From a virus, in IMG/VR virus record IMGVR_UViG_3300030102_004358, positions 1 to 25,401 of that record: a stretch of 25,401 nucleotides of DNA; one strand, given 5' to 3'. Shown piece after piece: positions 929 to 18,458 of this stretch. The translations under genes were made by a program, and so were the position numbers. Under the pieces are notes generated by a model. The model searched no databases, was not told where the DNA came from, and saw only the letters and a program-made list of their open reading frames with translations. The first letter of the stretch is position 1, and each line of letters starts with the position of its first letter.

Positions 929-1441
929 TTACTTGCCCTCTAGCTGGGCTTGTTCTTCGGGTGGTACTCTGGTCGCCTCATAAGGAATGAACAGCGACAC
1001 TACATCAAATGCGTTCAGGGAATAGTATACACCAGCATAGTTGTCTCGTATATCCTCTAGCATAGTATTCCATTCTTCGCCTTTTCTTAGTTTATAAATT
1101 GGGTGGCTATGTTTTTTCTTGTAGCCCTCGGGATCATTTCTAAAATCATATATTTCTCCCGCTGGGATTGTTGCTTTATAAAGTTTGCGACCTTGGGCCA
1201 CCTGTCTCTCTCTTTGTTGCGGGTCAACATACCAAAAGGTTCTAGGAACCGTGCTAGTCTCATACTCTCTCATAGTAAAAGAACTTCTCTTGGCTCTATC
1301 CGCAAAATACTTTGGGTCTACGATAATTGTTTCCGCATCTACAGGGGCATAATGAAAAAGCATCAACTCGCCGCCAACCTCATAGTCACCCTTCTGTGCC
1401 TCTGTGAGAAACTTTTTAAAGTTTTCCATTATCTTTTTCAT
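929..1441 (-). CDS. Candidate head-packaged ADP-ribosyltransferase-like protein
   Basis: 170 residues. The first 15 residues (MKKI..NFKKFLTE|A) resemble the T4 capsid-targeting sequence of internal head proteins and Alt (MKTYQEFIAE|A), ending in LxE before Ala, the prohead-protease consensus; the cut would fall after E14. The body resembles small ART-fold domains of phage polyvalent and MuF-linked proteins: FHYA at 29-32 (strand 1), DPKYF at 42-46, PRTFWYVD at 66-73, LYKATIPAGEIYDF at 87-100, DPEGY at 103-107, YAGVYYS at 135-141 and a final VSLFIPYEATRV strand at 148-159. This recognition is by pattern memory, and the catalytic triad is not firmly assigned. The gene overlaps the upstream DUF3293-like gene by 4 nt (ATGA), so the two are translationally coupled. 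By analogy with T4 Alt it may be injected with DNA to modify host proteins. The alternative is an inactive ART-like or unrelated packaged protein. Confidence 0.5.
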   Translation of the reverse strand: MKKIMENFKKFLTEAQKGDYEVGGELMLFHYAPVDAETIIVDPKYFADRAKRSSFTMREYETSTVPRTFWYVDPQQRERQVAQGRKLYKATIPAGEIYDFRNDPEGYKKKHSHPIYKLRKGEEWNTMLEDIRDNYAGVYYSLNAFDVVSLFIPYEATRVPPEEQAQLEGK

Positions 1442-2136
1442 AGGTTCTTTTTTAGTTCCCTGAGTTTGAGGCGGAGGATTTGGCGGTGATGCCAGCGAGA
1501 CTTGGGGGCTCGGTCAGCATCCAGAGTGTAACCAATCCTGTCGTTAATTTCTTTAATAAGTTCTTTGTTCGCTTCTTTTTGGATCTCGCTTAGACTGGGC
1601 AAATCATAATCATATTCAAACCCCTCTTCCATTTCGTACTGCTCATCAAAAAACGGAATAAAAAATTTGCGTCCGGATGACTGTCTCTCCTGGGAAAAGA
1701 AATCCTCTCGTGCTTGGACATCATCATCGAACAGGACCGCATCCCTTTTTTGTAATGTTTTGTCGCCTTCAATATATTCAAAGACAAACTTATCTTCTCC
1801 TGTCTTAGCTCCCCAAATGACAGACTCTTGGTTGAAGTACTGTCCAGCCTCTACCATATCCTCCCTGGTAACATTTGGAATGATCATTGAGCGCTCTTTG
1901 TTTCCAAAACTTCCACGAATACGAATGGGTCCGTAGCCTCGTTCACGCATCCAAGCCATCAACTCTTTGTTGAGGTCTCTGTTTTCGCTGGAGGATAGCT
2001 TTTGAGCCATAGGGTTTTCTGCTGTCATAAACCCCACAGTGCTCACGGAGGCCACGTCACCTTGTAAAATGTTCTTAATTCTATTGAATCCAGACTCATT
2101 CAAGAACTTTTTCCACTCATTTAGTATTTTTTTCAT
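1438..2136 (-). CDS. DUF3293-like protein with capsid-targeting-like N-terminus
   Basis: 232 residues. The N-terminus MKKILNEWKKFLNE|S shares 9 of 14 positions with the next gene and ends in LxE before Ser, the same protease-site pattern. Residues about 30-110 resemble DUF3293, a small domain of unknown function: VGFMTAENP at 34-42, SSENRDLNKEL at 49-59, RGYGPIRIRGSFG at 66-78, ERSMIIP at 81-87, and EAGQYFNQESVIWGAK at 96-111, which matches the family's closing GQ-A/V pattern. The rest is charged and contains an acidic Tyr-rich segment (EEGFEYDYDLP) and a basic helical C-terminus (about 212-232, RWHHRQILRLKLRELKK) that could bind nucleic acid. The ribosome binding site is weak; the gene starts 4 nt after groES, so coupling is likely. 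Function unknown; packaging in the head is inference. Confidence 0.6.
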   Translation of the reverse strand: MKKILNEWKKFLNESGFNRIKNILQGDVASVSTVGFMTAENPMAQKLSSSENRDLNKELMAWMRERGYGPIRIRGSFGNKERSMIIPNVTREDMVEAGQYFNQESVIWGAKTGEDKFVFEYIEGDKTLQKRDAVLFDDDVQAREDFFSQERQSSGRKFFIPFFDEQYEMEEGFEYDYDLPSLSEIQKEANKELIKEINDRIGYTLDADRAPKSRWHHRQILRLKLRELKKNL

Positions 2137-3008: not shown

Positions 3009-4880
3009 TTAAGTGATTTCGCACGCACCGCCAGCACAGGCTGCTTCACCTTTGAGGTCGGTGTTGTCGTCCTCTTCAACAATCTTGGTGAGGTCAACAT
3101 TTTCTAGCGTGGCAAGCATCGCTTCAAACTTCTCCTTGGAGCAGTCTTCAAAGGGTGCTTGCTGGTAGGTACCACCGTTGAATGGGAGAACTGCCAAGCC
3201 ATTATAATAATTGCGGTTGTCCCACATCCACTCACCAGCATCGGTCCACTCGTTTTCGTGGAGGCTGATGGTGGCTGAAACATTATGTCCGTTCTGCCCT
3301 GTTCGCTTGCCAGGGTTGACCCACTCTTTGGTAATCTTCTTTACTCGCCGCAAAAGTTGGAACGCACTTTCATCACGCAGGATAGAACCTTCGGGTGCTC
3401 GTTGAGGCACAGAGATGACGGCTGTATCGTGTGGACGGAAGAACTCATCTTCTACCAGTTCAGGGTGGTTGACAGCGAGGTGCCAATAAATTGGCTCATT
3501 TTTGCCAACTCTGATTCGGCGGATATAATAATCGTTGTGCCAGGCGTGGATGCCGCTGGATGTTCCCAGGGTCAAACTCGTGGTTCCCGCAGGTTTTACG
3601 CAGGTTGTACGGGCTGCCTTGTTAATGCCAATCGCCTGGGCAACACGAGCATTTTCTTCTTTCACCACGTTGGCGGCATCCGTCAAACTGATGTCGTCTT
3701 GGAGTACACGGCCCGAAGCGATGCCTGTCATAGACACGCCAATGAGAGCATCTCTCTCTGTGGTTCGCTGCCAAACTGGGCGAAGATAATGAAAGTCTGT
3801 GTAGCCTGCTTGGAGTGTACCGATGAAAGTGGCAGCCCTCACCCGCTGTTCCAAGTCGTTCTGTCCTGTGATGTTGCTGACATTTACTTCTGTCAGATTA
3901 CAGAACTGGAATGGTCGTAGTCCAATCTCACAGCACGGGTTGGTTCCCCAGTCCTTGTCGTTCGACAAGTAGATGCCAGGCTCGCCAGCGTTGGATGCTT
4001 CTACTCGCTTCCATAGATCCATAAAAAATTCTTTTGTTACTTTGTGCCGCAAAAGTACGGCAGAGTTGTTGGCTCGTCCTCGCTGTGGGTTGGTCTCCCA
4101 CCAGTTGCCAGACTTGCAGGCAATCATCTCATTGTCACTTGCGGAAAACAAAGAGATAAGAGCAGCACGACGGATGCCACCAGCCAACACAGCATCAGCA
4201 ATATGACAAACGATGTCGTGGACTTCAATAGCCGACAGTCTGCTTCCGTCTTCCTTTTCAGATAGGACGCCCTCAACCTTTACCAAACATTCTTTAAGAG
4301 GTTGCGGTCCTGGGGCTTTGCCGCCAGAGGTTACAAGGCGAGCACCTTTAGGGCGAATATCGCTATAATCAAATCGTAACTTCGAACCACCAAAGAAGTA
4401 GCTGCGAATAAGATACTTGACGGCATCAGCCCATCCTTCAATACTATCATTTACTAAATACCTCCGAGTTCGATTAGGATTAGGTTTTCTAATTTCTGGT
4501 AGCTCATCAACGTGATGCTGCTGGACTGAGTACCCAACGCCAGTTCCGCCAAGCAACAAAAACATAATCTCGCCGAACACACGCCAGTCATCTACGGGAG
4601 CATAGGCGCAGTTGAATACACGGTTGGGAGAGATTTCAATAGGTTTCCCTGCGAACTGCATAGAACGCATAGAAGGTAAAACCTTTTTGTCAAATACAAA
4701 TTTATAATTTTCTTTGATTTCTTTTTTGAGGTTCGGGTATTTTTTGAGGTGCATTTGCATGTTCCGAGTAACTAACTCTTCCCAAGTCTCACGGCGTTTC
4801 TGTTCTGGTAAATAACGGGCGTACTTCATGTACACTGTAATATCTGAAAGGATCTTAGTTGAGATGTCTTGCTCGTTCAT
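3009..4880 (-). CDS. nrdJ: Adenosylcobalamin-dependent (class II) ribonucleoside-triphosphate reductase
   Basis: 623 residues, resembling the monomeric Lactobacillus leichmannii RTPR type (739 residues), shorter but with all key parts. It reduces ribonucleotides to deoxyribonucleotides using a B12-generated thiyl radical. Visible residues: C91 in VFNCAYAP; GGTGVGYSVQ at 111-120; PKGARLVTSGGKAPGPQPL at 177-195 (regulatory/substrate loop); NPC316-C317-E318 with C327 in FCNLTEVNV, spaced by 11 like the RTPR thiyl cysteine and its partner; and C615AGGAC620 at the C-terminus, the redox pair regenerated by an external thiol donor. The extra Cys317 next to the presumed radical cysteine is unusual. 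No intein is seen. The ATG overlaps the helicase stop (ATGA). As a B12 enzyme it needs no oxygen and depends on host cobalamin. The next gene encodes a CxxC protein. Confidence 0.93.
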   Translation of the reverse strand: MNEQDISTKILSDITVYMKYARYLPEQKRRETWEELVTRNMQMHLKKYPNLKKEIKENYKFVFDKKVLPSMRSMQFAGKPIEISPNRVFNCAYAPVDDWRVFGEIMFLLLGGTGVGYSVQQHHVDELPEIRKPNPNRTRRYLVNDSIEGWADAVKYLIRSYFFGGSKLRFDYSDIRPKGARLVTSGGKAPGPQPLKECLVKVEGVLSEKEDGSRLSAIEVHDIVCHIADAVLAGGIRRAALISLFSASDNEMIACKSGNWWETNPQRGRANNSAVLLRHKVTKEFFMDLWKRVEASNAGEPGIYLSNDKDWGTNPCCEIGLRPFQFCNLTEVNVSNITGQNDLEQRVRAATFIGTLQAGYTDFHYLRPVWQRTTERDALIGVSMTGIASGRVLQDDISLTDAANVVKEENARVAQAIGINKAARTTCVKPAGTTSLTLGTSSGIHAWHNDYYIRRIRVGKNEPIYWHLAVNHPELVEDEFFRPHDTAVISVPQRAPEGSILRDESAFQLLRRVKKITKEWVNPGKRTGQNGHNVSATISLHENEWTDAGEWMWDNRNYYNGLAVLPFNGGTYQQAPFEDCSKEKFEAMLATLENVDLTKIVEEDDNTDLKGEAACAGGACEIT

Positions 4881-6367
4881 GCTGTTTGTTGTTCCTCTTG
4901 TAATTTAGTGGCTAATTCTCGTAACTCATCTTTAAGGCTCTTCTCTTGGTTCACTGCTTTTTTTTTATTTTCTTCCGCTTGTGTTTTGCGGCGCTCTTCT
5001 TTGAACTTCTTATACTTCTTGCGTAGATGTTCGTCTTGTTCTTGTTTCGTCTTCATCACTACAGCATCAATCGTTGAATGCTCGTCAGGTGGTAGCACTC
5101 GCAGATGAACCTTGGCTGTGTCAATTTCCATTGGGTAGACGATGCCGTCAATGCCGTTGCGGTTTTTGGCAACAAACATACGACCTTTGTTCTCGGTCTT
5201 GTCCTCAATCGTGCGGGAAATAGAACAGATAAAATCAGCCACAAAGCACTTGCTAAATGCTTCGCTAATAGCTTCCATCGTAATGACCTCGGCATTCAAT
5301 CCGCTGCGGTTTGTTTGGGAGGCCGTCCACACTGGGATATCAAAAGTCTGTCCGATCCCCCGCAGTTCTTCATAAATATTTCCAAGACTATGGCGTAACT
5401 CCTGAGACTTAAAGCCTGTGGCTGTTGGTTTTAAGAGGTCAGCGTAATCCACAATAATCATATCGGGATTGATGCCCTTTTGTCGTAGCTTTTCTAGGTG
5501 CCCAATAATTGTACGGGTAGAGGCTGACTTGGTTGGGTACTCTTTGATAATCAGCTTGCCTGGGATGTGTTCCACTGCCATGACAATTGAGTCTTTCATA
5601 GACATTAGATTTTTTAAATCGATGCCCGTAATACAGGAGTCATAGCGTTGTCCCACTACGGTGTCTGCAAGCTCTAATGTATAATGAACTACGGTTTTGC
5701 CCTTAACTACCGCAAAGGCACCAAGATGGGCGAGTGCCATAGACTTGCCCGCACCAGTTGGGGCGACCACCACACCGAGTTCACGCTTGCCAAGTCCGCC
5801 CTTGGTAATGCTGTCAATCTCATCCCAATATGTAGAAATAGGATTACGCATCTTCATCTCAAAGCGGTCAAGAACATCCTTATGATAGTCGTGCCCGTGG
5901 TCGTTGTCTGCACCAAGGTTCATTGCCTCGTTGATGACCTTTTGAATCTGGTCAAAACTCTGTGACTGAAGAAGGTCCACGGATTTGAGGATGGCTTCTT
6001 TTAGTTTCTGCTTCTTACAGAAGTCTAGGGACTTTTCCTTGACATACTCTTCGTCGTCATCACCGATAGCATTGCTTTTGATGCGAGCCAAAAATTCAAT
6101 GACTTGTTTGATAATGCTATCAGAGTAGTCCTCGGTCTGGGTCCGTACCACCGAGACCATTGCCTCGTAGGTTGGGTGTGGGTAGGATTGCTTGTGCTGG
6201 AACAGAAGGTCCACAAAAACCTGTAGGTACTTTAGTTCCAGATAGTTTGTATCAAGAACCTCTTCCATTTGATTCGCAAAGTTGCGGTCAAACAGGATGG
6301 TCTTTACTAGTTTTTCTTGGAAGGACTTTCCGAACTTGCTGAAAGTATCATATTGTTGTTCGGTCAT
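4877..6367 (-). CDS. DnaB-type replicative DNA helicase (T4 gp41-like)
   Basis: 496 residues. The N-terminal helical domain is about residues 1-150. A RecA-fold helicase core follows: TKGGLGKRELGVVVAPTGAGKS at 188-209 with Walker A APTGAGKS (202-209), E232 in HYTLELAD, Walker B MIIVDYADLL at 303-312, TASQTNRSG at 348-356 and KNRNGIDG near 400-410. The last 70 residues are Lys/Glu-rich and predicted coiled coil, an extension that may contact the polymerase or primase. Family role: 5'-3' hexameric unwinding ahead of the replication fork. No primase is fused or present in the window. The ATG at 6367 has AAGGA at good spacing. It sits between the exonuclease and the reductase in one operon. Confidence 0.9.
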   Translation of the reverse strand: MTEQQYDTFSKFGKSFQEKLVKTILFDRNFANQMEEVLDTNYLELKYLQVFVDLLFQHKQSYPHPTYEAMVSVVRTQTEDYSDSIIKQVIEFLARIKSNAIGDDDEEYVKEKSLDFCKKQKLKEAILKSVDLLQSQSFDQIQKVINEAMNLGADNDHGHDYHKDVLDRFEMKMRNPISTYWDEIDSITKGGLGKRELGVVVAPTGAGKSMALAHLGAFAVVKGKTVVHYTLELADTVVGQRYDSCITGIDLKNLMSMKDSIVMAVEHIPGKLIIKEYPTKSASTRTIIGHLEKLRQKGINPDMIIVDYADLLKPTATGFKSQELRHSLGNIYEELRGIGQTFDIPVWTASQTNRSGLNAEVITMEAISEAFSKCFVADFICSISRTIEDKTENKGRMFVAKNRNGIDGIVYPMEIDTAKVHLRVLPPDEHSTIDAVVMKTKQEQDEHLRKKYKKFKEERRKTQAEENKKKAVNQEKSLKDELRELATKLQEEQQTA

Positions 6368-11389: not shown

Positions 11390-12614
11390 GTCGTATATCC
11401 TTCATAGAACCGAGAGTTTTACCTCTTTTTATGTTTACCCTGAATTTGCCGAAATTCGTAGAGCCCATAAGTGCAGCCATTGATTTAAGTAGGTTCGCAT
11501 CCTCGTTTTTCATATCAATCACAATAGCATCGTGGATTAGGAAAGCGATGTGTGAACCTTGTGATTGTTTCCGCAAAAGGTACTCTATCTTTAGAGCCTG
11601 CTTTAAAGTTAATTCTGCGGCTGTTGATTGGACTAGGTAGTTCAAGGCGTGATGTTCGCTCGTATCGGGTATCTCTTTTTTAAACGGCGTTCTAACTGTT
11701 GTTCCGTCCCAATATTCTTTGAGTAGTCGGTCCTTTTCGTAAAACTCCGCTAGTTTGGTCATTTCTTGCTGATCAGCGGCTGTTTTTGAGCCGTACAACC
11801 AAGCGAAAAAGGCGACCTTGGCTTGGTCACGGTTGTTAATTTTCGTAAAGATTTCCTGAAGGTGGAAATCGTGTACATCACCCTCTGGCTGCTCCTTGCC
11901 GAGAAGACCAAGCAATGTGCGAACTTCTGCTCCGTTAAAATCTAGCTCTACAAAACAGTCATTCTGTGGCTTAACCGCTGAACGAAACTCTTTGCTCATC
12001 GTTAGGATTGGGAAACTTCCTTTTTTGGTCGTAAGTCTGCCTGTTTTCGTGCCGAACTGGTTATAGCGAACATATGGAGCCGCTGATAAAATGTTTCTGG
12101 CGTGGTTCTTTAGCTTTGGACTCTGCAAGTAGACCGACACCAACTGGGGGTCTATAAGTACTTTCTTGTTGCTTATGTCCTCTAGCATCATTGCAGTGTG
12201 CTTATAGAATTCATACCTGGCAGGCTTTTTAACATTCTTGAAGACATACTCTGTTATCTTGTTTTTTATCTCGCAAAAATCAATTAGAAATCTTTTTGGA
12301 ACCAAGTCAAAAAAACAATTTTCATACGTGTCAACTTGAGACACGGACAACGACCTCTTGAAAGCTGTTATTTTTTTTGAAACATCCTCCCAGTCATCCC
12401 TCAAATATTCAGGAAGAACCTCATCCAAGGAGCATCCTTCCAGATACAACGAGGCATAATCAATTTCAAGATCCCTCAAGTAAGGAGCATATTTCCAGGT
12501 TTGGCGCAGTCCCTCTGGAAACTCTGTTAAATCGAAAATTAATTTATTGGCTGTATATATGCCAACACACTCGGACTTGTCGTCTAAAGTTTGAAATAAC
12601 AATTTTAGCCCCAC
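11382..12614 (-). CDS. Minimal family-A DNA polymerase-like protein
   Basis: 410 residues, against about 600 for a Klenow-type fragment. TGRLTTKKG (191-199), motif A VELDFNGAEVR (222-232, catalytic D225 and E230), motif B RDQAKVAFFAWLYG (262-275), NYLVQSTAAEL (325-335) and motif C LIHDAIVI (359-366, D362) are present. Motif C reads HDA instead of the usual HDE. The first about 180 residues show no exonuclease motifs, so neither a 3'-5' nor a 5'-3' nuclease is evident, and the thumb and fingers look shortened. The start is GTG overlapping the previous TAG (TAGTG) with no good ribosome binding site, so expression probably depends on translation of the upstream virion gene. It could be a repair or lesion polymerase or a degenerate replicative one. 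Confidence 0.8.
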   Translation of the reverse strand: MGLKLLFQTLDDKSECVGIYTANKLIFDLTEFPEGLRQTWKYAPYLRDLEIDYASLYLEGCSLDEVLPEYLRDDWEDVSKKITAFKRSLSVSQVDTYENCFFDLVPKRFLIDFCEIKNKITEYVFKNVKKPARYEFYKHTAMMLEDISNKKVLIDPQLVSVYLQSPKLKNHARNILSAAPYVRYNQFGTKTGRLTTKKGSFPILTMSKEFRSAVKPQNDCFVELDFNGAEVRTLLGLLGKEQPEGDVHDFHLQEIFTKINNRDQAKVAFFAWLYGSKTAADQQEMTKLAEFYEKDRLLKEYWDGTTVRTPFKKEIPDTSEHHALNYLVQSTAAELTLKQALKIEYLLRKQSQGSHIAFLIHDAIVIDMKNEDANLLKSMAALMGSTNFGKFRVNIKRGKTLGSMKDIRLG

Positions 12615-14122
12615 TAGAGTCTAATTATATCCCCAACGGTATCTAGCGTTAAAGTTCCAGTATCGGCGGGGCCAATAAACTCATTTTGTGCAACTCGGAG
12701 GGCTCGTGTATAGGCTGCCTCTAAATCCTGTCTAGAGGCCAAATTATAATTATTCATTATACGCTGGATCTCTATTAGCTTTCTTTTATTTGGCACAGTC
12801 CTATTTCTTTCCAGATTCCGTACAATATAAAACGTCTTGAGTTTCCACCTGTCCCCATAAGTAGATACAAAATCCTCTTTGGACATTATCTCTCTGGAGA
12901 ACGTATAGTTTCTAGGACCGCAACTTGAATCATAAGGTGACAAGGTTTGAACGGGTACATCAGGCTGAAGGGATACATAATAATTGTAAAAAAACAATAA
13001 ATAATCTTGTAATAAGTTTATATCTAAGTTCCACGTTTCAGTATAGTCGATAGTAAACATCGCATTAAATATTTCAGGTTGACTATCTTTATCAAAAATC
13101 GGTACCCACTGATCTCCGTTTTGCCTCTTGTATCTTTCATAGCCTGGTTCTGTCTTGGTTTCGCCGTTATCTCCCTGATAGGTGTAGAAAGCTATTCTTC
13201 GTCGCACATCTTCAAAGCCAGGAATTTGAGAATATCCGTAAGCCATCGGGGGTGATTCTGGTGCGCCGATCAAAGGATCACACTCATAATCTACATTCTC
13301 ACCAATATCAAAGTCCACTATAGGAACACCAAGCATGTATTCAACCATTGCAGGATTTCTAAGGTCAGCGACTAGTCTCCAAGGAATATTCTTATCGATG
13401 GAAAATCCGTACTGAGAGGCTATGCTGGCCACAAGCGAAAAATTACTGTCTCCAAACTTAAAGGCTTTATTAAAATCATCATCGTAATTATCGTCAGCTA
13501 TTTCTATGATGAGTCCAGAAGAATACAAAGGAGCATAAGTACTTTCAATAAACCCAGACAAAGTAACTGGACCTGCCTTTGTCATAATATTTTTTGTGAA
13601 CTCACTAAAATAATTCATGAAAGAATCAATATTTCTTATTTTTTGGTTTCTTCCATTTGAATAAAGAAATTCATCATAAAAGACAGGATATATTTTTTCA
13701 CGCATATAAAGATCATAACTATCTTGAACTGGCTCCCAAGCCTTGACAACTTGAGGGGAAGCCCAAGGACTGTCTTTAAAGGTTATATTTTGAGCGGCGA
13801 GTTCTCTAAGTTTTTTGGCCAAGTCATACCAGGCATCAGCGACAAAGTTTAGGGCGTATTTATTAACTGAGTCATCCGAGTTGAACCGAAGGCTTTTAAG
13901 ACTAATAAGATCAGGCACTGATGTGTTGCCCTTGTTGTTAACCAACCCATACAATCTTTCCGTAGTCCAAGTGCTGACAAAGTTTCTAATTAAAAAATCT
14001 GGAAACACATAGAAATCGTACTTAAGCCGCTCAAAGAATATCTCTTTTGCGTTAAGGTTGTTAGAGCCATATGAATAAATCTCAGGCTCCGCTAAGGGGT
14101 TTGGTCTGTCTTGTTTAGCCAC
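12614..14122 (-). CDS. Virion structural protein, probably baseplate-associated
   Basis: 502 residues, Tyr/Phe/Asn-rich, with no signal peptide or membrane segment. I do not know a named family. It contains FPDFLIRNFVSTWTTERLYG early, GFSIDKNIPWRLVADLRNP about residue 240-258, a repeated-looking aromatic middle (LLQDYLLFFYNYYVSL) and WKLKTFYIVRNLERN near the C-terminus. These aromatic-rich patterns are common in phage tail and baseplate proteins. The start is GTG, overlapping the hub gene stop by 8 nt. Position at the end of the tail module supports a late structural role. Function inferred from context only. Confidence 0.6.
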   Translation of the reverse strand: MAKQDRPNPLAEPEIYSYGSNNLNAKEIFFERLKYDFYVFPDFLIRNFVSTWTTERLYGLVNNKGNTSVPDLISLKSLRFNSDDSVNKYALNFVADAWYDLAKKLRELAAQNITFKDSPWASPQVVKAWEPVQDSYDLYMREKIYPVFYDEFLYSNGRNQKIRNIDSFMNYFSEFTKNIMTKAGPVTLSGFIESTYAPLYSSGLIIEIADDNYDDDFNKAFKFGDSNFSLVASIASQYGFSIDKNIPWRLVADLRNPAMVEYMLGVPIVDFDIGENVDYECDPLIGAPESPPMAYGYSQIPGFEDVRRRIAFYTYQGDNGETKTEPGYERYKRQNGDQWVPIFDKDSQPEIFNAMFTIDYTETWNLDINLLQDYLLFFYNYYVSLQPDVPVQTLSPYDSSCGPRNYTFSREIMSKEDFVSTYGDRWKLKTFYIVRNLERNRTVPNKRKLIEIQRIMNNYNLASRQDLEAAYTRALRVAQNEFIGPADTGTLTLDTVGDIIRL

Positions 14123-17100
14123 TTGGTTTCTTCCGTTTTTTGTTTCCTGTCCTTAACTCAAAAACACAGTCCAACGTTGTGTTATATCCTTGGTTAGTGA
14201 TCTGGTGTGTTGAACGAATAACCCTATAATACCCACCAATACCTAGTATCTTTCCAGCAAAGTCGCCGAGGGCTGCCCGAGTGTCTACATATATTAGGTC
14301 GCCATTTCTGTGCAAACTGTTACCATACATCTCTATGTTAACGTTCTGCGGGAGAAAGAGTGCTTGAATTCTATCTTCTGGGTTATTTGACTCAATTAGC
14401 ATCTCTTGGAAATACTGTGTTTCTTGTCTTGAAAAATTGAAAGTCTTAGCTAGCCCTCGATCACTCCCGACCATATAATGAAAAATACCATCTTTAACAT
14501 CGTCTTTTATAGAGCCTGTTCGGTCACCAAAGCCCGTCTTTTTAACAAAGATGGCGTAGTAAGCTTGATATTTGATATTCTTCTTGGACAAAGGGTCTCT
14601 CATACCTTTTCTTATCTTTGCAAATTCACGACGAGTCAAAGTATTGTTTTTACCACAAGCCACGTTTGTCTCGCTGGAATATATTGTGGTATAATCAAAT
14701 GAAATTCTTTCCGAAGTTTGAGGATTTTGGTTCATTGTCTTTGCCACAAAGTTCAAAAAGTCATTCATAAATCGTCTAAAAGGATAGGCTGTTAGTTGTG
14801 TGGCCACGATTCTTTCAAAAAAGAATTTTGCAAACGTTTCTATGCTGATTGGGATATTGTATATTGATCTAATATTACCATTTACATCTTCAAAGTTGCC
14901 CAGAAGAAGTGTAATATCCTCTCTAAGACCTGACGTTTTTGCCATGATTTGAAATATATCACCGAGAAAGAAATAATAGAACTTCTGGCTTGTGCTATCT
15001 CTATTGGCTGATGGCTTTGTTCTGGCTTCTTTTTTGCTTTTCTCTAAAAGGTTAGACACAAGCCCGCCAAGAAAATTATTTTGTCTTCCAACTTCCTCTA
15101 GGTATTTCTCGGCGGCTTTGGCGGCGGCTTGAGCAACCTGTTCAATCTCTTGCCGAACAGCTACGAGTCTTGGGTTAAGATTTAATATGGGCTTGTCCTT
15201 TTCAGTGTCAGCGTAACCAACTCTTAAAACCTTATCCTCTATCATCTGCCTTAAGAATGTAGAGTACATGTCACGCAACCTTGTCCTCAAAGCCCTCTGG
15301 TAAAGTATTACAATGTACTGTCCTCTTCTTTTAATCTTTTTTATAGAATCGTCTTTAGGGTCCACATTTTTTGCTTCTTTCAGTTTTAATTCGAGAGTTA
15401 CTAATTCTTGAGCAAGGCGGAGTCCAGCCATCTGAACCACAAGGTACCTCTGTCCGTATATATTTTTGGGCGAGCCACCTTCTCTCTTTTTTATTTCAGA
15501 ATAAAGCTTATTCAGATAAGGATCGCCCAATGAGCGGATTTTTGTGGTTGCAGAAGATTTGCCTCCAGAGTTTGCCCCTTTAGCATCTGATAGAATATTG
15601 TTTTCTTCGAGGATCCCCTCTAGTGAAACCTCTGTATCCTTGTACATAAAGTCATTTAGTCCATCTGGATTAAAATTATTAGAGCCAAAAATGTCAGAAT
15701 TATCGCTCGCTAGATAGTTGTCTGTTGAACCAAAATACTTAAGAGATAGCGTGGTGGGACCCTCTTGGGTAAAATTAACATTGTAATCGGCTAAGTTTAA
15801 AAGAATTGCTGTGTGTGTTTTTTCTATGTCTTCTTTGAATTTTTTGAATTTATCTTTACCAAAGATGGACTGCAACTGTTCTCTGTTGCCTTCTGGGAGG
15901 GACCACCCAACAATAACCTTTAACTGTCTGAAGTTTTTCTTTGAAGATGCGGTTAGTTGTGTGTTGTTTTTTGTGACAAAAGATTCTATCTCTTTGTTTC
16001 CTTTTTGCAAAACAGTCTTATACTTGTCTATTTCTGTTTGCATCTTCTTAAGAAGGTCATCACTGGTTGTTCGGTTGAAGGTGCTTTTAGCTGCTCTGCT
16101 CTTCTTTGCTCGTTCTGTCAATTCTTCAGCTACATCAACATCATTGCCAGTTGGAAACAAGAAGCGTAGATAATTTACGTTTGCCAATTCTACAAGGCTC
16201 CCGAAATACAATTCAAGATCTGCCTCAATGATAAAATCACCCTCGTGTTTGTTGTTAAAATTCCAAGTAAATGATTTTATTCCAGCCTCTCCGCCTCTGC
16301 TGGTTTTGTAATTTATGATCTCACTGACGGATTTGCCTTTCAATTCTGCCATTTTTTTAATATGTTGCTCCGAGACTATATCACTAAAATATATTTCTTC
16401 TTGGTTGCCGTCTTGGTCCACAATGTAAAACCGAAGCAATGGCACCAAAGAGGACAACTGAGCGGGCGTAGCCTCCAGAAAGGCGTTATTGGTGCCCGTA
16501 AAAAGTCCCTCGGTAGAAAGCCTCTGAGTGAAGGCACCCGAGCCAACTCCCGAAGTTTTTGATGATTCATTTTTAGAAATTCTATAAACTTTTTGGTCGC
16601 ATAATATTTTAAACTCATCACCATTGAGTTCACCCATTTTATTAAACAATTGAGCCTGTAGGTTCTTTGTAAACTGTTTAAGATCTTTGGCCTTGGCAAG
16701 ATTTTTGTTCCTAGCTGCTTCTGCCGCCTGTTCCTCAGCAAGTCTTACCTCTGCCTGAAGGCTTTCCATTTCCCGTATCTCGCTCATCGGGAGATGTCTT
16801 AATTGTTCGTCGTAATATTGTCCAGTGTTTTGGTCCAGATACATCGTGACCCCAAGACCAAATGCGTTTTCTACTTTTATCAATCCAGCTTTTGCCGCTG
16901 CCTCATTGGCACGGACTACGGCACTAGCTTTTTCTTTTTTTATGGCTTCGCCTTTTTGTTTTGCTGATCTAAAATATGCTTCTCGGGTGGCGATCTCTGT
17001 TTGTGCCCGAGTCTTGACTTCTTTTAACAGTGTGCCATATTCTGCTGTGGCCTCACTTTCTGCCATAAACAGGTCGCCTGAATCACGACTGTCAAGTCCG

Positions 17101-17252
17101 TCAGCGATTACTATTTCAGCCTGTCGATCCTTAATCCATTGCTCACGGGTTTTCCCCTGAAAAGCAGCGCTAGACAATTCCTTTGTTCTTGTCTCAATGA
17201 GTTCCTGTTTGTACTCTTCGGTGTATGAGTCGCCCTTTACGCCATTAGCCAC
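14115..17252 (-). CDS. Large baseplate hub-like structural protein
   Basis: 1045 residues. The N-terminal 230 residues are Ala/Glu/Lys-rich with long predicted coiled coils (about 1-120 and 150-215). A middle part has SLVPLLRFYIVDQDGNQEE and SFTWNFNNKHEGDFIIEADLELYF, which resemble tail hub domains. The C-terminus has MYGNSLHRNGDLIYVDTRA (975-993) and ILGIGGYYRVIRSTHQITNQ (1002-1021), the pattern ending many gp27/gpD-type hub proteins (Gxx.xxxGDxIYVD ... LGIGGYYxVxxVxH.I). Inferred role: the central ring at the tail tip joining tube, baseplate and the cell-puncturing device. The start is GTG with AGGGG upstream. It lies 11 nt after the gp53-like gene. No lysozyme domain was recognised. Confidence 0.65.
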   Translation of the reverse strand: MANGVKGDSYTEEYKQELIETRTKELSSAAFQGKTREQWIKDRQAEIVIADGLDSRDSGDLFMAESEATAEYGTLLKEVKTRAQTEIATREAYFRSAKQKGEAIKKEKASAVVRANEAAAKAGLIKVENAFGLGVTMYLDQNTGQYYDEQLRHLPMSEIREMESLQAEVRLAEEQAAEAARNKNLAKAKDLKQFTKNLQAQLFNKMGELNGDEFKILCDQKVYRISKNESSKTSGVGSGAFTQRLSTEGLFTGTNNAFLEATPAQLSSLVPLLRFYIVDQDGNQEEIYFSDIVSEQHIKKMAELKGKSVSEIINYKTSRGGEAGIKSFTWNFNNKHEGDFIIEADLELYFGSLVELANVNYLRFLFPTGNDVDVAEELTERAKKSRAAKSTFNRTTSDDLLKKMQTEIDKYKTVLQKGNKEIESFVTKNNTQLTASSKKNFRQLKVIVGWSLPEGNREQLQSIFGKDKFKKFKEDIEKTHTAILLNLADYNVNFTQEGPTTLSLKYFGSTDNYLASDNSDIFGSNNFNPDGLNDFMYKDTEVSLEGILEENNILSDAKGANSGGKSSATTKIRSLGDPYLNKLYSEIKKREGGSPKNIYGQRYLVVQMAGLRLAQELVTLELKLKEAKNVDPKDDSIKKIKRRGQYIVILYQRALRTRLRDMYSTFLRQMIEDKVLRVGYADTEKDKPILNLNPRLVAVRQEIEQVAQAAAKAAEKYLEEVGRQNNFLGGLVSNLLEKSKKEARTKPSANRDSTSQKFYYFFLGDIFQIMAKTSGLREDITLLLGNFEDVNGNIRSIYNIPISIETFAKFFFERIVATQLTAYPFRRFMNDFLNFVAKTMNQNPQTSERISFDYTTIYSSETNVACGKNNTLTRREFAKIRKGMRDPLSKKNIKYQAYYAIFVKKTGFGDRTGSIKDDVKDGIFHYMVGSDRGLAKTFNFSRQETQYFQEMLIESNNPEDRIQALFLPQNVNIEMYGNSLHRNGDLIYVDTRAALGDFAGKILGIGGYYRVIRSTHQITNQGYNTTLDCVFELRTGNKKRKKPSG

Positions 17253-17263
17253 TTTAGAAACCC

Positions 17264-17605
17264 CTAATTAATAAATTCTAAAACAGCTTCGAGAGGAAGC
17301 GGAACATAGTATTGATCACCTACTTCAAACTCTGCCTCAGATGCTCTCTTGTTATACCAAGCAATAACCCACCAATATTTTGGAGACCCATAAAACTTGT
17401 TAGATGTATTATAAAGAGTATCTGTAGCACCCCAGACTTGAACAACGTTTTCCAAATCTCTGGTTTCCTCTGGAGTTGGATATGATATATTTGGCATATC
17501 ATATTGATAGGTTTCTTGGATATCTCTATCTTTGAAAAAGACATTCTTATAGTTTTTATCTTTATTTAGAAAAATTTCTCTTCCGTTATATCTTGAGTAT
17601 GGCAT
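17264..17605 (-). CDS. Baseplate wedge protein, T4 gp53-like (LysM-type core)
   Basis: 113 residues, shorter than T4 gp53 (196). Residues 58-103 contain the diagnostic pattern: WGATDTLYNTSNKFYGSPKYWWVIAWYNK then FEVGDQYYVPLP, a DxL....FYG....WW.I...N.......GxxxxIP motif shared by gp53 and LysM-like tail proteins. Family role: links baseplate wedges around the hub. The N-terminus (MPYSRYNGREIF) is short and basic. The ATG at 17605 has AGGA somewhat far upstream. It lies 13 nt after the preceding structural gene and 11 nt before the hub gene, consistent with a baseplate cluster. Confidence 0.8.
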   Translation of the reverse strand: MPYSRYNGREIFLNKDKNYKNVFFKDRDIQETYQYDMPNISYPTPEETRDLENVVQVWGATDTLYNTSNKFYGSPKYWWVIAWYNKRASEAEFEVGDQYYVPLPLEAVLEFIN

Positions 17606-17618
17606 AGTAATTTAATTC

Positions 17619-18458
17619 CTATTTGTCTCCGTCAGGATCATCATCCTTCTCCAGAGGAGGACCCAAAGGATTGCCCCCAGGAGGACCCGATGGTCCAAAA
17701 AGGTTTCTAATTTGCTTTCCAATCCTTGTCGAAGCAGCATTTGCAGCATCGGCAGTCGCAGTAACTAATTGAGAGCCTACCTCTCCCGCCAACTTTGCAA
17801 AGGCGGCGGCTTCAGTTTCTGTGGGTAAAGATACGCCATATGGAAAATTGTTTTGTTTTACAGACTTGTTTCTAAATTTGAAAGTATTACCACTCTTTAC
17901 GAAGCCTAGTTCGTGCTCATGCAAAACATTTAATTCAAAGTTAAGAAGTATCGTCTTAGGGTAGTATTCAACATCGCTCTGCTTTAGTCCAAAACCAGCG
18001 TTGCCTCCTTCTGAATAAAACATACCATTTTCAATGCGAGGATCAAAAGTAAACCCATTGACATACCCAAGCAGTCCCTTACCAGTTGTAGACTCTCTAA
18101 TTAGGTTCCCAAAGCTGACTCGCATGAGCGGACCCTGATTGATGGCAGTGGCTCCTTTGGCACCTGTTTTTTCGGAATACAAAGGATATAAAAAACTCAT
18201 TAACTTATTTACATTCATCATATTTATTTTTGCGTCGTCGTAAGAGTCTGCTGGCACATTCCAAGAGAGTGAGATTGCTCTACGAGTATTCATAAAGGTA
18301 GTGATGGGATCCATACGACCATAAACATCTTCGGCGGTCCAGTTTGATGTGAACATATCTGCTAAGTTTTCTAGGTATGCTGGGAACTCAACCTTAAACC
18401 CTGTCGGCACATGTACAAACTTAAGTTTTAAATTATTTTTAGTACCCAGTGTTGCCAT
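17619..18458 (-). CDS. Baseplate / tail-tube junction-like structural protein
   Basis: 279 residues. The core (about 10-190) has VPTGFKVEFPAYLENLADMF, NWTAEDVYGRMDPITTF and NTRRAISLSWNVPADS, followed by NKLMSFLYPLY and MRVSFGNLI, a pattern I associate with phage tube-initiator or baseplate proteins (mainly beta, tube-like fold). The last 80 residues are Ala-rich, then a Gly/Pro/Asp tail (PSGPPGGNPLGPPLEKDDDPDGDK). Position between the tape measure and gp53 suggests the role of T4 gp48/gp54, where the tube begins on the baseplate. The ATG has GGAGA nearby. Precise T4 equivalence is inference. Confidence 0.55.
   Translation of the reverse strand: MATLGTKNNLKLKFVHVPTGFKVEFPAYLENLADMFTSNWTAEDVYGRMDPITTFMNTRRAISLSWNVPADSYDDAKINMMNVNKLMSFLYPLYSEKTGAKGATAINQGPLMRVSFGNLIRESTTGKGLLGYVNGFTFDPRIENGMFYSEGGNAGFGLKQSDVEYYPKTILLNFELNVLHEHELGFVKSGNTFKFRNKSVKQNNFPYGVSLPTETEAAAFAKLAGEVGSQLVTATADAANAASTRIGKQIRNLFGPSGPPGGNPLGPPLEKDDDPDGDK

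Follow-up and report, generated by a model that had tools for sequence, protein, structure and literature searches.

Why do two neighbouring phage genes encode proteins that begin with almost the same residues and are otherwise unrelated, and what would such a pair do during infection? The genes lie on a 25,401-base fragment from IMG/VR (the whole stretch of DNA that was analysed, called the window here). By gene content the window comes from a marine T4-like myophage, with a tail sheath homologue, RNR, a DnaB-like helicase and others. Nucleotide searches of the window against named phages and against plasmids gave 0 matches. The features of the pair are as follows.

929 to 1441, minus strand: tagged 170-aa protein with a predicted ADP-ribosyltransferase (ART) fold (ORF; AF2 model; ART-fold matches)
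1400 to 1441, minus strand: tag of the ART protein, residues 1-14, MKKIMENFKKFLTE, predicted cut before A15 (sequence; tag statistics)
962 to 1378, minus strand: ART-fold domain, residues about 22-160 (AF2 model; structure matches; alignment)
1438 to 2136, minus strand: tagged 232-aa protein, DUF3293 / SAM lyase superfamily (PF11697; AF2 model; T3 SAM lyase match)
2095 to 2136, minus strand: tag of the SAM lyase-like protein, residues 1-14, MKKILNEWKKFLNE, predicted cut before S15 (sequence; tag statistics)
1651 to 2064, minus strand: SAM lyase-like (PII/ferredoxin-type) domain, residues about 25-162 (structure match; alignment)
1441 to 1590, minus strand: C-terminal helical extension of the 232-aa protein, residues 183-232, close clade (relatives; AF2 model)
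1438 to 1441, minus strand: ATGA overlap of the SAM lyase-like gene stop and the ART gene start (sequence)

As the initial annotation had reported, the N-termini of the two adjacent ORFs are near-identical: M1, K2, K3, I4, K9, K10, F11, L12 and E14 occur in both (9/14 residues). The tag ends in FLTE followed by A in the 170-aa protein and in FLNE followed by S in the 232-aa protein. The remainder of the two proteins is unrelated, as had also been stated, and their predicted folds differ. The exact T4-type late promoter TATAAATA is absent upstream of the gene pair. Directly upstream of the pair, the window encodes a short GroES-like (Cpn10) protein at 2141-2392 on the minus strand.

The frequency of such tags was assessed in 746 distinct proteins from 7 large relative viral contigs, grouped by body similarity into 327 body families. 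At the N-terminus, 151 pairs of unrelated body families had an identity of at least 8/14, and at the control offsets of 14, 20, 28, 42 and 56 the number of such family pairs was 0. Twenty-eight unrelated families fell into one cluster, in which the leaders are of either a MKKLLTEWRKFLKE-like or a MKITKSQLRQIIKEE-like type. Regular expressions written for these types matched 63/746 N-termini and 11/3430 internal Met; by this count, 19 tagged families are encoded by the largest relative (190 kb) and 16 by the next largest (172 kb). Which of the two leaders precedes the SAM lyase-like body differs between phages, as expected for an address label. The alignment of the 170-aa family retains E14 in 38/49 sequences, and that of the 232-aa family in 31/32. 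Both AF2 models give the leader with low confidence (pLDDT below 50 for residues 1-12 of the ART protein), and the bodies are well predicted. In the ART homologues L152 and L154 (5995-6450), the leader helix is kept and the glutamate of the cut site is absent (MQMKLLLENWRKY...). Two strict patterns found no such tags in the named phage that is nearest by gp23, Flavobacterium phage immuto, and a text search of the literature found no published use of a MKITKSQLRQIIKEE-type leader.

The T4 prohead protease gp21 prefers [L/I]xE sites. T4 internal proteins have only an N-terminal leader in common, which directs packaging (PMC12373910; PMC3012670) and is cut off by gp21 (PMC9958956; PMC5694885). 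The initial annotation had interpreted the common N-terminus as a head-targeting propeptide cut by a protease of this type. We looked for the gene of such a protease (S77, PF03420); it is absent from the 25-kb window fragment and present in close large relatives. Of the relative contigs, which are fragmentary, 6/11 encode it, as do 3/19 further ones, mostly short. In the relatives it sits in a terminase-portal-protease-scaffold-gp23 cassette. The gp23 leaders of the relatives contain AQLLKE followed by Q or T, and that of immuto KQIVSE followed by A; the protease N-termini contain DDLLTE in the relatives and GLLTE in immuto. At the sequence level, these [LV]xE sites of the gp23 and protease leaders resemble the FLTE end of the tag with its following A. 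A small conserved protein within the head cassette starts with MKKSELKNIIKECVKEV, a tag-like helix, and is perhaps a core protein that the leaders resemble. Its gene is seen in L053 (G002) at 16814-17200, between protease and scaffold, with homologues in L064, L051, L090 and L049. The tag statistics, the protease and the LxE leaders make a head-targeting propeptide the best reading of the common N-terminus. Since the tag is not a chance likeness and the relatives have both the S77 protease and similar LxE leaders, packaging, cleavage and injection of both proteins appear likely.

The 170-aa protein had 0 matches in Pfam and PHROG, and tblastn of this protein in named phages likewise gave 0; in NCBIfam, neither protein of the pair had a match. 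Its AF2 model (pLDDT 89.0, pTM 0.83) and the structure matches predict the ART fold that had been proposed for it. The best VIA-align PDB rows are ART folds, comprising RES toxins (MbcT), ParT, diphtheria-type toxins, the anti-CRISPR 6kyf and PARPs. The scores are modest (best PDB Z 6.7; Foldseek E 0.065), so the fold assignment relies on the agreement among rows and not on any single row. Among the viral models of BFVD, named PolyVal ARTs are found to match the ART model, as is a Flavobacterium elemo structural protein. Eleven residues are invariant in 49/49 ART sequences (H30, P66, R67, F69, Y71, E78, L87, Y98, D103, G137 and Y140); D146 is found in 33/49, the third H-Y-D position thus being variable. 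The R-S-E set is absent among the invariant columns, and H30 lies on strand 1, where the R-S-E class has Arg. Alt belongs to the R-S-E class, and H-Y-D ARTs occur in polyvalent phage proteins, where Tox-ART-HYD2 is defined by H on strand 1, Y on strand 2 and D on strand 5 (PMC5512222). Judged from the model and the alignment, the 170-aa protein appears to fit these H-Y-D ARTs. It had been described as a small counterpart of Alt; in terms of family this is not supported, the protein having invariant H30 and Y71 and mostly D146 as against R-S-E in Alt. A mini-Alt by family was therefore rejected on active-site class.

The 232-aa protein matches DUF3293 (PF11697, 1.3e-9), in agreement with the DUF3293-like label it had been given. 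That label came with no function, whereas the predicted structure and the conserved residues indicate that the protein is a member of the SAM lyase superfamily in which the active site is retained. Its AF2 model (pLDDT 83.7) matches the T3 SAM lyase (8bb1) with a VIA-align Z of 13.5 at 2.5 Å over 129 residues, far above unrelated rows, and Foldseek returns the SAM lyase fold at E 5e-4 and probability 1.00. The family PF23780 (S-AdoMet lyase) scores 21 bits with the window protein against a cut-off of 28, and matches 16/27 homologues. Two of these exceed the cut-off, L036 with 59.5 bits and L044 with 35.6 bits, and an ART gene directly adjoins in L035, L038 and L043, close kin of L036. Sequence searches of the PDB with the queries A1, A2 and L036 found no relative. 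The sole invariant columns in 32 sequences are G75, E81, S83 and Q103 (32/32). G56, E69 and Q104 are among the residues under strict conservation in Svi3-3, where S71 binds ribose and the Y58F substitution lowers activity five-fold (PMC7877911). G75, E81, S83 and Q103 correspond to G56, E69, S71 and Q104 of Svi3-3, and position 77, at the place of Tyr58, is F or Y. When the SAM lyase alignments were compared by hhalign with T3 SAMase alone, the result was weak (probability 12% for A5 and 2% for A4); in the A5 alignment, weak as it is, GSY lies opposite GCY and QDS opposite QDC. Because this direct alignment is weak, the residue correspondence is based on order, E-x-S spacing and invariance. 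A SAM-AMP lyase is known from phage, and enzymes of this kind agree with SAM lyases in fold and in the E/Q residues of the site (PMC12255297). Because SAM-AMP is the substrate of some proteins related by this fold, the 232-aa protein could act on SAM or on SAM-AMP. In L009, at 4352-4901, the SAM lyase-like gene appears to be split by a frameshift and the ART gene is intact.

The two domains are linked beyond the window. A SAM lyase-like ORF lies directly upstream of 34 of the 61 distinct ART ORFs, and in L151 SAM lyase and ART are fused in one 424-aa ORF under one leader. Both domains are also present in QMP85339.1 of Elemovirus (Flavobacterium podophages), a 3694-aa protein annotated as 'structural protein', with the SAM lyase-like domain at 1294-1499 (1e-44) and the ART-like domain at 2075-2207 (hhalign probability 80%, 1.4e-5). 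We looked for the basis of this annotation and found none. Provided that the label is right, the presence of both domains in this one protein supports joint delivery in unrelated phages.

Our favoured explanation, which we consider quite probable, is that the two proteins, a SAM (or SAM-AMP) lyase and an H-Y-D ART, are delivered in the manner of T4 internal proteins and would thus be packaged, cut and injected. The modular tag, the protease in the relatives, both folds, the conserved site residues, the adjacency and the natural fusion were computed directly, and from there we infer packaging, cleavage, injection, substrate and targets. Late in infection, the 14-residue propeptide would dock each protein into the prohead core. 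Cleavage after E14 by the S77 prohead protease would shorten the SAM lyase-like enzyme to 218 aa and the ART to 156 aa inside the head, and both would be ejected along with the DNA. As its fold and site residues suggest, the SAM lyase-like enzyme would destroy the S-adenosylmethionine of the host, or else the alarm molecule SAM-AMP, and in this way could disarm SAM-dependent defences (for example restriction-modification, BREX or type III CRISPR-CorA) ahead of phage gene expression. The ART would ADP-ribosylate at least one host protein, acting like T4 Alt. The SAM pool, however, may be too large for a few hundred injected copies to exhaust.

A variant keeps the tag as a packaging signal and takes SAM-AMP as the target of the lyase, making the pair partly an injected anti-CRISPR against type III/CorA. 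The fold and E/Q residues common to both kinds of lyase and the known phage SAM-AMP lyase agree with it, and a low-copy injected enzyme suits a low-abundance signal; the matches found here, however, are to SAM lyases, that of T3 with Z 13.5, and sequence cannot tell the substrate. We regard this variant as possible, if on the doubtful side. The N-terminus might instead be another sorting signal or a docking helix, directed for instance to a host receptor, the membrane or a degradation pathway, on host-takeover proteins that the infected cell synthesises. Some tags are indeed without the cut-site glutamate, but it is retained in most rows of both families, T4 internal proteins likewise have only such a leader in common, the relatives possess the protease and the [LV]xE gp23 leaders, and the small protein of the head cassette has a tag-like N-terminal helix. 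We therefore think such a signal unlikely.

The genes overlap, and the solved structures nearest in fold to the ART model are toxins of toxin-antitoxin systems (MbcT, ParT, RES); both observations would suit a module with an ART/RES-type toxin and its antitoxin encoded upstream. The upstream protein, however, is predicted to be an enzyme with a conserved active site and carries the same tag as its neighbour, 27/61 ARTs have no partner found directly upstream (some of these contigs are cut), and L151 fuses both domains. A toxin-antitoxin pair is thus very improbable, and we rejected it on the enzyme fold of the partner and the L151 fusion. Finally, short helices rich in K, L and E are common, and two ordinary accessory genes could have N-termini that are alike by chance or as a by-product of a common helix. 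This is scarcely credible given 151 family pairs at the N-terminus against none at internal offsets, and chance likeness was rejected on that control.

Delivery from the head, as we favour it, resembles T4 IPI-IPIII (CTS) in the short leader on otherwise unrelated proteins, the gp21-type cut site at its end, the T4-like head genes and the S77 protease (here in relatives). It differs in that many more families per genome are tagged, with two leader types, and in that packaging is predicted; its cargo has SAM lyase-like, ART, GNAT-like and 2H phosphoesterase-like folds, whereas T4 IPI-IPIII are small GmrSD inhibitors. With T4 Alt, the 170-aa protein shares an ART with a cleavable leader and head packaging, both predicted here, but it is much smaller and has an H-Y-(D) site where Alt has R-S-E. 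Like the polyvalent ARTs (Tox-ART-HYD2 / ART-PolyVal; Iyer et al. 2017, PMC5512222), it has H on strand 1, Y on strand 2 and mostly D on a late strand, matches named PolyVal ARTs structurally and is homologous to a domain of a giant phage protein annotated as structural; unlike them, it is a tagged stand-alone protein with no Pfam sequence match and not a domain of a huge multidomain protein. The 232-aa protein shares its fold and the G, E, S and Q site residues, with F/Y77 similar to Tyr58 of Svi3-3, with T3 SAMase, Svi3-3 and DUF3293, and differs from phage SAM lyases by the head-targeting-like leader and the C-terminal helical extension. Elemovirus QMP85339.1 combines the same DUF3293/SAM lyase-like and ART-like domains, but in one giant untagged podophage protein with about 580 residues between them.

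Most of the known head-packaged anti-defence proteins are those of T4 (IPI-IPIII, Alt) and P1. We find the case evenly poised for a class of marine T4-like phages with at least a dozen tag-addressed injected effectors per genome, in which unrelated enzymes (SAM lyase, ART, acetyltransferase, 2H phosphoesterases) bearing leaders that can be swapped would serve counter-defence at DNA entry, and in which the leader alone could find unknown anti-defence proteins. If the proposed delivery is true, a pre-made SAM-destroying enzyme would enter with the DNA, ahead of SAM-dependent restriction, and DUF3293, on which a search of one literature library found no paper, would gain a predicted function. The leader also gives a simple sequence rule to list candidate injected effectors in uncultured marine phages. 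The tagged MKKLLTEWRQFLKE protein of L062 (G002), at 12266-12778, matches GNAT acetyltransferases (PF00583, 3.6e-6) and is a candidate further injected enzyme. Tagged proteins in L068 (G001) at 16358-16807 and L084 (G005) at 1894-2358 have 2H-phosphoesterase-type matches (LigT 4e-4; tRNA_lig_CPD 5e-7) and could possibly degrade cyclic-nucleotide alarm molecules. A tagged 169-aa protein of L084 (1380-1889) has 0 family matches and a stretch, IYRGMTID, that looks like strand 1 of an R-S-E ART. In L057 (G002), at 17254-18363, a tagged 369-aa protein has VVYHYTNG right behind its leader and is possibly ART-like.
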